This document shows, piece by piece, positions 3,451 through 41,637 of a stretch of 64,000 nucleotides of DNA. Position 1 is the stretch's first letter. Every line of letters begins with the position of its first letter. This stretch comes from Procambarus clarkii (lineage: Eukaryota > Arthropoda > Malacostraca > Decapoda > Cambaridae). The stretch lies in assembly GCF_040958095.1 (NCBI RefSeq), contig NC_091188.1, positions 36,865,713 through 36,929,712 of the forward strand. Reading direction: 5' to 3'. Below the pieces are notes generated by a model. It did no database searches. It saw only the letters and a list, made by a program, of their open reading frames with translations, and was not told the origin of the DNA. The translations under genes and the position numbers were made by a program.

Positions 3451-3603
3451 ATGAATTTTGGAGAAGTGATTTTTGATTTACCTCCAACAGTGAAGCATAA
3501 TGTACGAAAGATTGAGAAAATTCGTGTTAGAATTATTAATCTTACTTTTTCGGTCATATTTAATAATATATGTCTACAGGAAAGACTGCTACCAAAATAT
3601 ACT
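3451..3603 (+). pseudogene. N-terminal fragment of a following PLE family A unit, cut at a (TA)n tract
   Basis: The frame begins with a true ATG ([15 protein letters not shown]) and matches the first ~50 residues of the near full-length copy at 33,820, up to LLPKYTNI. It then passes directly into (TA)n, which gives a meaningless YIYIY tail. It is the 3' pLTR portion of copy A2 and not a separate gene. Confidence 0.75.
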
Positions 3604-3652
3604 AATATATATATATATATATATATATATATTTATTTATTTATTATTTAAG
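3602..3652. repeat. (TA)n then (ATTT)n simple repeat
   Basis: A short TA run starts inside the ACTAATAT codon triplet of the PLE fragment and decays into ATTT units. Confidence 0.9.
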
Positions 3653-3893
3653 TAATTACTATTTGTGCCTGCAGAATCAAGCAATTTGTTCTTGGACTCC
3701 GCCTTTCTAACCTATCTATTTTTCCCTCTATTATGTGTCTCTAGTATTTTTCCTATAATGTATATATGTCTTTTTATGTGTGATTTTATGTGTACGTGTG
3801 TCTGTATCCGTGGCAGTGTGTAAGAGTGTCTTTATGTGTACGTATGTATGTGTCCATATTTCAGGTTTAATATGTTCTTGCGTCCATATATAT
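3653..3893. other. Spacer between PLE and minisatellite, nothing coding recognised
   Basis: A single-copy-looking stretch that becomes rich in TGTGT/TATG runs before the 30-bp minisatellite. I see no gene. Confidence 0.5.
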
Positions 3894-4497
3894 GGTGTTG
3901 TATGTGATCTTGTGTCAGCATCTGTTGCTGTATGTGATCTTGTGTCAGCATCTGTTGCTGTATGAAACCTTGTGTCAGCACCTGTTGCTGTATGTGATCT
4001 TGTGTCAGCATCTGTTGCTGTATGTGATCTTGTGTCAGCACCTGTTGTTGTATGTGATCTTGTGTCAGCACCTGTTGTTGTATGTGATCTTGTCTCAGCA
4101 TCTGTTGCTGTATGTGATCTTGTGTCAGCATCTGTTGTTGTATGTGATCTTGTCTCAGCATCTGTTGCTGTATGTGATCTTGTGTCAGCACCTGTTGTTG
4201 TATGTGATCTTGTCTCAGCATCTGTTGCTGTATGTGATCTTGTCTCAGCATCTGTTGCTGTATGTGATCTTGTGTCAGCACCTGTTGTTGTATGTGATCT
4301 TGTGTCAGCACCTCTTGCTGTATGTGATCTTGTCTCAACATCTGTTGCTGTATGTGATCTTGTGTCAGCATCTGTTGCTGTATGTGATCTTGTGTCAGCA
4401 CCTGTTGTTGTATGTGATCTTGTGTCCGCACCTCTTGCTGTATGTGATCTTGTGTCAGCATCTGTTGCTGTATGTGATCTTGTGTCAGCATCTGTCG
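3894..4497. repeat. 30-bp minisatellite, about 20 copies
   Basis: The unit TATGTGATCTTGTGTCAGCA plus ten more bases (TCTGTTGCTG) repeats every 30 bp with a few point variants (GTGTC/GTCTC, CATC/CACC, GCTG/GTTG). Because 30 is a multiple of three, several frames on both strands stay open. Those frames are artefacts of the repeat. Confidence 0.95.
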
Positions 4498-4549
4498 CGA
4501 CCAATTGGATCCATCAGCCGATCTACCAACAGGACCAAAATATTTGGCA

Positions 4550-4945
4550 AAACCTACGCTAGGTCTAACTGTATAACAAAACCTACGCTAGGTCTAACTG
4601 TATAGCAAAACCTACGCTAGGTCTAACCGTATAACAAAACCTACGCTAGGTCTAACAGTATAGCAAAACCTACGCTAGGTCTAACAGTATAGCAAAACCT
4701 ACGCTAGGTCTAACTGTATAACAAAACCTACGCTAGGTCTAACAGTATAGCAAAACCTACGCTAGGTCTAACAGTATAGCAAAACCTACGCTAGGTCTAA
4801 CAGTATAGCAAAACCTACGCTAGGTCTAACTGTATAACAAAACCTACGCTAGGTCTAACAGTATAGCAAAACCTACGCCAGGTCTAACTGTATAGCACAA
4901 CCTACGCTAGGTCTAACTGTATAGCAAAACCTACGCTAGGTCTAA
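4550..4945. repeat. 29-bp minisatellite, about 13-14 copies
   Basis: The unit contains CAAAACCTACGCTAGGTCTA followed by ACNGTATAG or a close variant, repeating every 29 bp. The core CCTACGCTAGG is an imperfect palindrome. It runs directly into the 169-bp satellite. Confidence 0.95.
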
Positions 4946-38645: not shown

Positions 38646-38781
38646 ATCTTACAATACTAGTTGATTTTATACCCGCATTAGGTCAGGTGATAATACAATG
38701 AAGGTGTACATAAGGGATAAACATAGGGGCTGCAGAAGGCTTATTGGCCCATACGAGGCATCTCCTATCTAAACACAAAGA

Positions 38782-40541
38782 TTAATCCAGTGTAATTGGC
38801 CTGTTATGTTGGACATTGTCTTCTGTGTTGGCATCGATATGTTCTTGTCTTGTCCTTACTCTCATGGTGGGTAGAGTAAATAGTTCCGTGATTTGGGTGT
38901 TCATGGTAGGTCGCTCTATTCTTATGTGAATTGCCTCAAGAATTTGTAATCTTCTTGGATCTTGGGTTTTGTCAATTATGCAAGTATTCTTGTTCAACAT
39001 TTCTCTTGTTAGAGTAATGTCATGGGCTTGTCTCATGTGATTCCTAGGGGCACCAGATTGAAGATGGCATGTCAAACGCCTCGTCAGCTTGGTCGACGTC
39101 ATACCTATGTACTTACATTGAAGGTTACATCCTTCGTGGGGGCAAGTGTACATGTATACAACGCTTGACTGCTGTAGAGGGTTCTCCGTCGGCTTCGGGC
39201 TGTTTTTGATAAGGAGTTCGGAAGTCTTCTTGGTTTTGTAGAATATTATCAGGTTTATGTTTTGGTTAGGAGTAGTGCTTTTTACTCCTTTACGGATTAT
39301 TTCTTTCATTATTCTTTCCTCTTTTATATGTTCACTGTGCATGGTTGATTTGTAATATAATTTTATTGGGGGTGTTGTGGTTTCTGTTCTAGGTTCTGAA
39401 TTATACCAACGGTCCAAGTGTCTTCTTATAGCAGCGTTTATTTCCGCGTTGCTATATCCGTTGTTCACCAATACCTGAGTTACTCTTTCAAACTCTCTAC
39501 TCACGTTGCTCCATTCAGAGCAGTGGGTAAGCGCTCGACGAATATAAGCATTGAGAACACTGGCTTTGTATCTTTGGGGGCACTCACTTCTACCGTTCAG
39601 GCATAATCCTATGTTGGTGGGCTTGGTATATACGTTGGTGCTTAAAGAGGTTCCTGTTTTTGTTATTAGTACATCCAAGAATGGCAGACTGTTATTTTCA
39701 CTATTTTCATGTGTAAATCGGAGTACTGACTCTCTCTCTAGGTGTCTTTTTAGGTCAATTAGTTCATCTGATTCTTTTACTATTACGAATATGTCATCTA
39801 CATAACGGCAGTATACAGTTGGTTTTTGTCTGCTACTGAAGTCCCTATCTTCGATGGTTCCCATATAAAAATTAGCAAATAAAACTCCTAAGGGGGAGCC
39901 CATTGCTACTCCGTCTATTTGTAAATACATGTCTCCTTGTGGACTGATGAAAGGGGCTTCCTTTGTACATGCTTCGAGAAGACTTTTCAAGTGTGGCTCA
40001 GGTATGTCTAATTTGGGGGTGCTCTCGTCTCTGTATACTCTGTCCAGTATCATTCCTATGGTTGTGTCGACTGGGACGTTGGTAAAAAGGGATTCAACGT
40101 CCAGGGAAGCGATGATTCCATCGGGCTGGGTAGATTTGATCAATTCTAGGAAATCTGCTGATGATTGTAGACTAAACTTACTTGGAGTGTATGGAGTTAG
40201 GAGTTCATTGAGTTTCTTTGCCAGGTGATAAGTTGGGGTTGGTATTTGGCTGATTATAGGGCGTAGTGGGTTACCTGGTTTATGCGTCTTAACATTGCCG
40301 TAGGCATATCCTAAGCCATAGTCGCCTTGAAGTTTATTGAAATGCACACTACCTTTCTTTGCGTTGATTGCTGTAATTGTTTTGTTTACTTTCCGCTTAA
40401 GGTCTTCTACGGGGTTCCTCGTGATTCGTTGAAATTTGGAGTCGTCACTTAGGATGTCGCTAATTTTGTTCATGTATTCATGGGTAGGAATCAATACATA
40501 TGCTGCTGTTTTGTCGGCTTTTCTTATTGTTACGTCTAACA
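38782..40541 (-). CDS. Penelope-like element family B: RT plus GIY-YIG endonuclease, open frame, N-terminus lost to (TA)n
   Basis: The authentic frame begins at about 40,541 ([20 protein letters not shown]) and is open to the stop at 38,782. The longer frame reaching 40,908 only reads through (TA)n and an unrelated family-A fragment. Domains in order: RT with [36 protein letters not shown] and [12 protein letters not shown]; a linker; a GIY-YIG nuclease with [26 protein letters not shown], and [17 protein letters not shown] with the Glu and Asn. It is clearly related to family A but much diverged. All recognisable catalytic residues are present, so the lost N-terminus is the only obvious defect. 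Confidence 0.85.
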
Positions 40542-40648
40542 ATATATATATATATATATATATATATATATATATATATATATATATATATATATATATA
40601 TATATATATATATATATATATATATATATATATATATATATATATATA
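40542..40648. repeat. (TA)n tract, about 105 bp
   Basis: TA run that truncates the family-B frame and joins it to a family-A fragment. Confidence 0.96.
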
Positions 40649-40745
40649 TTAAATATGACCGAAAAAGTAAGATTAATAATTCTAACACGAATTTTCTCGA
40701 TCTTTCGTACATTTCTTTTCACTGTTGGTGGTAATTCAAAAATCA
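40649..40745 (-). pseudogene. PLE family A N-terminal fragment between two (TA)n tracts
   Basis: Encodes about 30 residues ([15 protein letters not shown] to SVIFN) on the minus strand, with (TA)n on both sides. Confidence 0.75.
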
Positions 40746-40803
40746 ATATATATATATATATATATATATATATATATATATATATATATATATATATATA
40801 TAT
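40746..40803. repeat. (TA)n tract
   Basis: TA run ending at the TNI codons of the next PLE fragment. Confidence 0.95.
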
Positions 40804-41637
40804 TAGTATATTTTGGTAGCAGTCTTTCCTGTAGACATATATTATTAAATATGACCGAAAAAGTAAGATTAATAATTCTATCACGAATTTTCTCAATCTT
40901 TCGTACATTACGCTTCACTGTTGGAGGTAAATCAAAAATCAATTCTCCAAAATTCATTTTTATTTCTAGTCTGACGCGACACGGGCGCGTTTCGTAAAAC
41001 TTATTACATTTTCAAAGACTTTAGTTCACAAATACACAACTGATTAGAACTTACGTATCTCCAATTTTATATCTACATTTGAGTGAGGTGGGAGGGGTGA
41101 TGTGGCATTAACACAAGACAGAACAAGAGGGGATATTAATAGGGTATTAAAAGTATCAACACAAGACAGAACACAAACAATGGGTATTGAATAGAAGTGT
41201 TTGTAGAAAGCCTATTGGTCCATATTTCTTGATGCTTCTATATTGGAGCGGAGTCTTGAGGTGGGTAGAATATAGTTGTGCAATAATTGGCTGTTGATTG
41301 CTGGTGTTGACTTCTTGATGTGTAGTGCCTCGCAAACGTCAAGCCGCCTGCTATCGCTGTATCTATCGATGATTTCTGTGTTGTTTACTAGGATTTCTCT
41401 GGCGATGGTTTGGTTATGGGAAGAGATTATATGTTCCTTAATGGAGCCCTGTTGCTTATGCATCGTTAAACGCCTAGAAAGAGATGTTGTTGTCTTGCCT
41501 ATATACTGGGTTTTTTGGAGCTTACAGTCCCCAAGTGGGCATTTGAAGGCATAGACGACGTTAGTCTCTTTTAAAGCGTTCTGTTTTGTGTCTGGAGAAT
41601 TTCTCATGAGTAGGCTGGCAGTTTTTCTGGTTTTATA
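40804..41637 (-). pseudogene. PLE family A C-terminal GIY-YIG domain with 3' region and next-unit start (copy A4)
   Basis: Minus strand from 41,637: SLLMRNSPDTKQNAL, the GIY-YIG nuclease (VVYAF, QYIGKTTTSLSRRL, CEALHIKKSTPAIN) to the stop at 41,212. Then come the 3' region with a hammerhead-like motif (about 40,966-41,030) and an ATG at 40,957 leading to LLPKYTNI at 40,804. The RT is absent. It is joined head to head with copy A5 at 41,638-41,640. Confidence 0.82.

Follow-up and report, generated by a model that had tools for sequence, protein, structure and literature searches.

The 64,000-nt stretch of the Procambarus clarkii genome analyzed here (NC_091188.1, positions 36,865,713 to 36,929,712; referred to below as the window) contains many copies of one family of Penelope-like elements (PLEs), family A, and one copy of a second, family B. 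In both families the 3' ends of the copies, read in the sense direction, fall at two fixed points early in the open reading frame (ORF) and adjoin (TA)n tracts, and when two copies lie head to head, nearly always one ends at the first point and the other at the second. Very probably these PLEs insert into (TA)n, their 3' ends represent starts of reverse transcription at two internal sites, and the head-to-head insertions arise when both target strands are primed, one from each site. The end sites, the (TA)n flanks, and the pairing were established in the present analysis, while internal initiation, priming of both strands, and cutting of AT-rich DNA are taken from the literature.

Two end sites of PLEs in the window

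Eight of the nine sense 3' ends of PLEs in the window were located at two points adjoining (TA)n. Site 1 corresponds to the Thr-Asn-Ile (TNI) codons, ORF nt 151-158 in the window copies of both families, where the element passes into (TA)n through the motif ACTAATAT in family A and ACCAATAT in family B. Site 2 is the run after CATATT, at ORF nt ~109-121, and its motif CATATTTA.. runs into (TA)n. Site 1 ends were found at 3,604 (+), 33,577 (+), 33,690 (-), 40,804 (-), and, for family B, 38,381 (-), and site 2 ends at 36,629 (+), 40,650 (-), and 48,146 (+). A sequence-only reading of the window had listed the same eight junctions, all of which were present within 1-2 bases of where it placed them. 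It had treated the second set as extras; the positions were right, whereas the minor status was not, as these ends form a second peak of similar weight at ORF nt ~109-121.

The ends at 33,577 and 33,690 may be non-independent, because a private variant, AAAATGTACT, is common to both. The ends at 33,690 and 36,629 are the two outer ends of a single head-to-head insertion, and so are those at 40,804 and 48,146. The ninth sense 3' end, 48,428 (-), lay at neither site: it coincides with the start of the ORF and adjoins a different tandem repeat. The break at 42,539 was left uncounted as an interruption by another retrotransposon. That the family A copy A3 is uninterrupted at TNI had also been noted before and is correct: A3 crosses both the site 2 break, 33,940/33,941 (ORF 121/122), and site 1, 33,970-33,977 (ORF 151-158). 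The identity between A3 and the family B copy was 64-69% across the longer alignable stretches.

The two sites recur across the genome

The 4.03-Gb genome (the window lies on contig C39) was searched with anchors, i.e., the element sequence directly 5' of site 2, with up to two mismatches allowed. The family A anchor gave 67,101 matches and the family B anchor 12,517; a reversed control anchor gave none genome-wide. Ends were sampled from 100 listed places per family. For family A, 84 of the 100 were taken, and the sample comprised 74 anchor copies from loci L009-L060 and the window; for family B, 20 loci, 34 pair ends, and 3 tandem places were taken among the 100 matches listed. Nearly the whole sample was from contig C1 and consisted of copies that match the anchor perfectly. 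Since the anchor sits just 5' of the sites, the sample is blind to ends further 5'; the window alone is free of this bias, and hence its eight of nine ends provide the bias-free count.

Among the family A matches listed, 31 of the 74 copies ended at site 1 (including L046, which stops a few nucleotides early), 38 at site 2, and 5 read through; no sampled copy ended elsewhere downstream of the anchor. Removal of five rows known as segmental duplicates changed these numbers to 29, 35, and 5, with a few further duplicates remaining in the sample. The 38 distinct family B sequences comprised 16 ending at nt 149-159, 19 ending at nt 114-121, and 3 reading through. The commonest site 2 break in both families was after nt 121 (26 A and 11 B sampled copies, the A counts being blurred by sequence variants). 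Reading through both sites is exemplified by L055 (C1:11003000-11012000), a tandem family A array with anchors 2,765 bp apart. Almost all aligned family A ends at the two sites (70/71) met (TA)5 or more, as did only 1 of 20 other alignment ends, three of which were merely the end of the reference within a tandem array.

It is confirmed that the two-site ends are real, strong, and beyond chance. The fixed breakpoints in two families proposed by the sequence-only reading were borne out (69/74 A and 35/38 B sampled copies at the two sites), and the sharp peak that it predicted genome-wide was found in the sample of both families, as two peaks. Its view of (TA)n as the usual target agrees with the counts given above, and the true 3' end, which it placed ~150 bp inside the next unit, lies ~120-160 bp inside it, which is the known layout of the pseudo-long terminal repeat (pLTR).

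Separately, three family A arms (loci L042, L053, and L058) ended in inverted stubs of 21-56 bp that started at the same element coordinate (C1:8823572-8823627, C1:10820005-10820035, and C1:11054238-11054258, respectively). These stubs resemble the product of a cDNA folding back on its own strand.

Nearly all head-to-head insertions carry one tail

PLE copies were often arranged head to head, minus then plus, with the 3' ends pointing outward on both arms. Consecutive minus and plus anchors were taken as pair members; the stretch between them was unread for 8 A pairs and for most B pairs. Four rows were left out as segmental duplicates (457486, 1020452, 10271809, and 11032046), together with pairs 8539849 and 8540750, which were unfetched and whose spacings repeat those of 7195340 and 7196241. 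Among the remaining 47 pairs, 44 used both sites, one per arm, and thus had exactly one tail, the two sites being spaced by 37 nt. The probability of at least 44 such pairs among 47, if the arms chose independently at 0.5, is 1.2e-10.

The rule held for 27 of 28 family A pairs; the inner junction was read in 20 of the 28, and the other 8 rest on their ends (in pair 4700954 the junction was read, and a 230-bp stretch further on is missing). It also held for 17 of 19 family B pairs, where the script called 12 of 17 discordant and L089/L090, L091/L092, and L097/L098 were added as discordant by eye. All three pairs of the window followed it, counting the left arm of insertion 1, which has its 3' end ~680 bp beyond the left edge of the window (locus L009), at site 2 and adjoining (TA)n. 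The pairing points to a single complex that primes the two cut strands from different sites.

The inner ends of the arms were no more than 50 nt apart in 7 of 19 A pairs (mean of 1.7 after shuffling, p = 0.0003) and, after exclusion of arms ending near the hammerhead-like site, in 4 of 13 (p = 0.03). In those seven close-ended pairs the site 1 arm fell short of the site 2 arm by 0-47 nt. The partner arm was the closest sampled copy, or tied for it, in 11 of the 19 pairs compared. The close inner ends and the similarity of partner arms fit two polymerases working on one RNA in part of the pairs. A further candidate rule, that the tail-bearing arm is always the shorter one, held for the three window pairs and was rejected on the 19 measured A pairs, in which it was shorter in 11, longer in 7, and equal in 1.

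We did not find the one-tail rule stated in the titles and abstracts of the papers located on PLEs with microsatellites, TA repeats, tails, and inverted pLTRs, nor in the accessible text of the papers cited here, most subscription papers being outside reach. What is new here is that, almost strictly, each arm of a pair has a start site of its own; we do not claim that this is unpublished.

Fixed ends do not require annealing to (TA)n

The sequence-only reading explained the fixed ends in another way. The element RNA would end at TNI, its UA-rich 3' end would anneal to a cut (TA)n, and complementarity would set the end. The family A sites do end in AATAT and AATATAT, and the (TA) phase is kept at most family A junctions; in the one B insertion with a different target, site 1 may overlap that target by 4 nt (ACCA). 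Against this stands, in the first place, family B site 2 (GAAACAT/G): although no more than 2 nt of it can be matched to (TA)n, it breaks most often after nt 121, just as site 2 of family A does. The family A unit contains 12 alternating TA runs of at least 5 nt, two of them 6 long, one of which is at site 2. For the other TATATA, taken in a single exact context, 4 junctions with (TA)n were counted genome-wide versus 18,721 occurrences of the exact site 1 junction; the fetched loci contained 29 intact control contexts, 25 exact site 1 junctions, and no control junction. Moreover, the end sites are two rather than one. The B insertion L089/L090 (ends re-read as L141/L142) used both sites in a short AT-rich target other than (TA)n, with the direct repeat TATTATAT of 8 bp, or up to 12 bp if ACCA is included. 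Finally, the purified PLE enzyme of Anolis starts internally in vitro, at a site without homology to the cut DNA (PMC11167929, in its accessible part). The position of B site 2, the control TATATA counts, and L089/L090 show that annealing to (TA)n is not needed for fixed ends, and we consider it improbable that complementarity sets them. The (TA) phase was dropped as a test of annealing because a fixed nicking phase would give the same pattern. Microhomology may still help as an aid, as the ACCA overlap and the constant (TA) phase would allow.

Still less probable is that the (TA)n is itself a product of reverse transcription, with this relative of the telomerase reverse transcriptase recopying a short UA template at each start site. 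Short UA runs are present in both family A sites, nearly all sampled ends adjoin (TA)n, and, according to the part of the study available, recent Penelope copies of one penaeid shrimp species are richer in long (AT)n (PMC7878876). However, PLE-free (TA)n tracts occur in the window (29837-29960, 32391-32583, and 37841-37892), family B site 2 lacks a UA run able to serve as a template, and both sites were used at L089/L090 with no (TA)n. Assembly collapse or a hairpin artefact at (TA)n hardly deserves credence: such tracts are difficult to assemble, 33,577 and 33,690 have a variant in common, and segmental duplicates occur among the loci, but the two sites recur at tens of thousands of places in two families, and a foldback copy would put the same outer site on both arms, whereas the outer sites differ in 44 of 47 pairs.

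Identity of the elements and other features of the window

The reverse transcriptase domain (Pfam RVT_1) was recognized in family B with 33.8 bits (cut-off 29.6) and in family A with 28.8 bits, slightly under the cut-off (E 1.2e-6). Copy A3 bears a unit start at both ends, i.e., it is a partial tandem in which the pLTR reaches into the next ORF; it begins within a few bases of the expected hammerhead-like cut, and its ORF frame is broken by stops. Most of 40 distinct sequences had, directly upstream of the ORF, the hammerhead-like motif with arms AGTCT/AGACT and CGCG/CGCG around CGAAA. Core positions C3 and G8 are U and A in both families, in contrast to the usual core and to the one printed for Anolis. 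Folding of the start-site region revealed no clear common structure by eye, and no relatives of the family A protein were found among viral contigs. Altogether, the published PLE anatomy extends to two more families, A and B, whose (TA)n target is unusually uniform.

The PLE features of the window are collected in Table 1. The family B copy is flanked by (TA)n at 38282-38379 (3' end) and 40542-40649 (5' end).

Table 1. Coordinates of PLE copies and associated motifs in the window.
Feature	Positions	Strand	
Insertion 1 (head to head), left arm, family A	1-1661	-	
Insertion 1 (head to head), right arm, family A; site 1 (TNI) end in (TA)n 3605-3632	1675-3604	+	
52-bp family A fragment (tail region), site 1 end	33526-33577	+	
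(TA)56 tract separating two site 1 ends	33578-33689	.	
Insertion 2 (head to head), short arm with site 1 as its outer end	33690-33789	-	
Copy A3, full unit (~2.7 kb) and start of next, site 2 end	33805-36629	+	
A3 ORF start, ATG at 33820	33820-33977	+	
Hammerhead-like motif, arms AGTCT/AGACT, 5' of next ORF start; no Rfam match	36454-36508	+	
5'-truncated copy of family B with a site 1 end	38381-40541	-	
Family B hammerhead-like core TTGAGAATG..CGAAACGTC, seen in the sequence; no Rfam match	38607-38638	-	
Family A fragment, site 2 end, (TA)n on both sides	40650-40745	-	
Insertion 3 (head to head), left arm with site 1 as its outer end, adjoining (TA)29	40804-41638	-	
Right arm of insertion 3, first part	41639-42539	+	
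Insertion 3, second part of the right arm, with site 2 as its outer end in (TA)n	46509-48145	+	
Older family A copy, 3' end at neither site	48428-50154	-	

The right arm of insertion 3 is interrupted by a non-LTR (long terminal repeat) retrotransposon with endonuclease and reverse transcriptase domains (42540-46508, minus strand); the PLE alignments flanking it overlap by 4 bases, and hence a 4-bp target duplication is possible. Between 32584 and 38281 there are repeated ~390-bp elements with palindromic ends (GTCGTACCTAGTAGCCAG...), inner TTAGG-like runs, and (TA)n flanks, and several PLE insertions on C1 likewise have this end sequence after (TA)n.

Elsewhere in the window, a 169-bp satellite occupies 4961-19420 in two arrays (4961-6352 and 6369-19420), the consensus units of which are reverse complements; the array therefore turns round near 6360. 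A retrotransposon-like gag and protease region (DUF1759, DUF1758) was found at 22009-24003 (minus strand). A fragment of a fibrinogen C-terminal domain at 61336-61941 (minus strand; PF00147, E 1.7e-33) was the one host-gene-like match among the seven proteins scanned.

A model of paired initiation

In the proposed mechanism, the element endonuclease would cut both strands of TA-rich DNA and the cut 3' ends would prime synthesis. Reverse transcription would begin inside the element RNA, near the start of the next unit's ORF, at site 2 (nt ~109-121) or site 1 (nt ~149-159), and the optional ~37-nt tail would be the stretch between the two start sites. The ends within a family would coincide because copying begins at these two fixed places in the RNA. 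A dimeric complex, holding an active site at either start with 37 nt between them, would extend each cut end, using both sites at once and perhaps often on one RNA, after which the far ends of the two cDNAs would be joined. A single-arm insertion would mean that only one strand was primed or that the other arm is very short. Whether the sites truly form a matched pair, with a dimeric PLE complex cutting (TA)n and making one cDNA per site, often from the same RNA, and with the ~37-nt tail reflecting the spacing of the active sites, is a proposal for which we see the chances as evenly balanced.

Several observations weigh against initiation at two sites on paired strands, or against parts of it. 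Three of the 47 pairs violate the pairing rule: in family A, 4694101/4697334 have both arms at site 2 (junction in L118, arms 93.8% alike), and in family B, L107/L108 (4.4 kb apart) and L111/L112 (a short palindrome) are both site 1/site 1. The arms of some pairs, e.g., 10316354/10319201 (89.6% alike), are unlike copies of one RNA. The GIY-YIG endonuclease match of family A (E 5.3e-4, 20.7 bits) is under the Pfam cut-off of 22.6, and family B had no GIY-YIG match in Pfam up to E 10. Rfam detected no hammerhead in the window at gathering thresholds, and a relaxed search of 36300-41200 returned none either, giving sub-threshold matches mostly to microRNA models at (TA)n or other repeats. In comparison with Anolis, as far as the accessible text of that report goes, the starts are AC-rich there versus AT-rich in family A (PMC11167929), and, measured from the hammerhead-like cut, the sites described here are ~40 nt further 3'; hence the match with Anolis in ORF coordinates may be partly chance.

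If paired initiation takes place as proposed, a head-to-head element with one tail would be the normal product of one insertion, and no rearrangement would be needed. PLE integration is poorly understood, and a genome with ~80,000 anchor matches to two PLE families, nearly all of those sampled lying in one simple target, offers a natural experiment.

Comparison with known systems

The sources compared below are described as far as their accessible parts go. In a survey of decapods, Penelope elements amounted to a mean of 2.3% in Astacidea (PMC10454600). The penaeid shrimp mentioned above resemble P. clarkii in that recent PLE copies go together with long (AT)n in a crustacean genome; that study interpreted them as repeat-carrying elements, without junction analysis (PMC7878876).

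The Penelope elements of Adineta vaga (PMC3846280) share with the crayfish families inverted beside direct pLTRs, a pLTR extending into the ORF, and an optional tail, which there is 31 bp long and present on one inverted pLTR. Target duplications of 8-10 bp were described in A. vaga, like here. In contrast, copies are few in A. vaga, the pLTR covers the first 12 codons (22 with the tail) versus ~40 (53) in P. clarkii, and no (TA)n target is reported in the accessible text.

The closest parallel is provided by the Poseidon element PAc of Anolis carolinensis (PMC11167929). In vitro, its reverse transcription has two starting points within the RNA, ORF +111-118 and a neighboring site, its genomic copies have an optional tail of 30-40 bp between the two starts, and the enzyme cuts AT-rich DNA and extends both strands. 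The crayfish families very probably agree with PAc in these respects, and they share the tandem arrangement of units; where PAc has a hammerhead beside the ORF start, they have a hammerhead-like motif. They differ in the target, which is not (TA)n in Anolis, and in the pairing, since no strand difference in start site was seen for PAc and the accessible part of the report contains no mention of their paired use. The end sites of the two crayfish families have ORF positions close to those of the starts seen in vitro with the lizard enzyme, and the rule of one tail per pair, as a constraint on any model of PLE integration, can be tested in the in vitro system that already exists.

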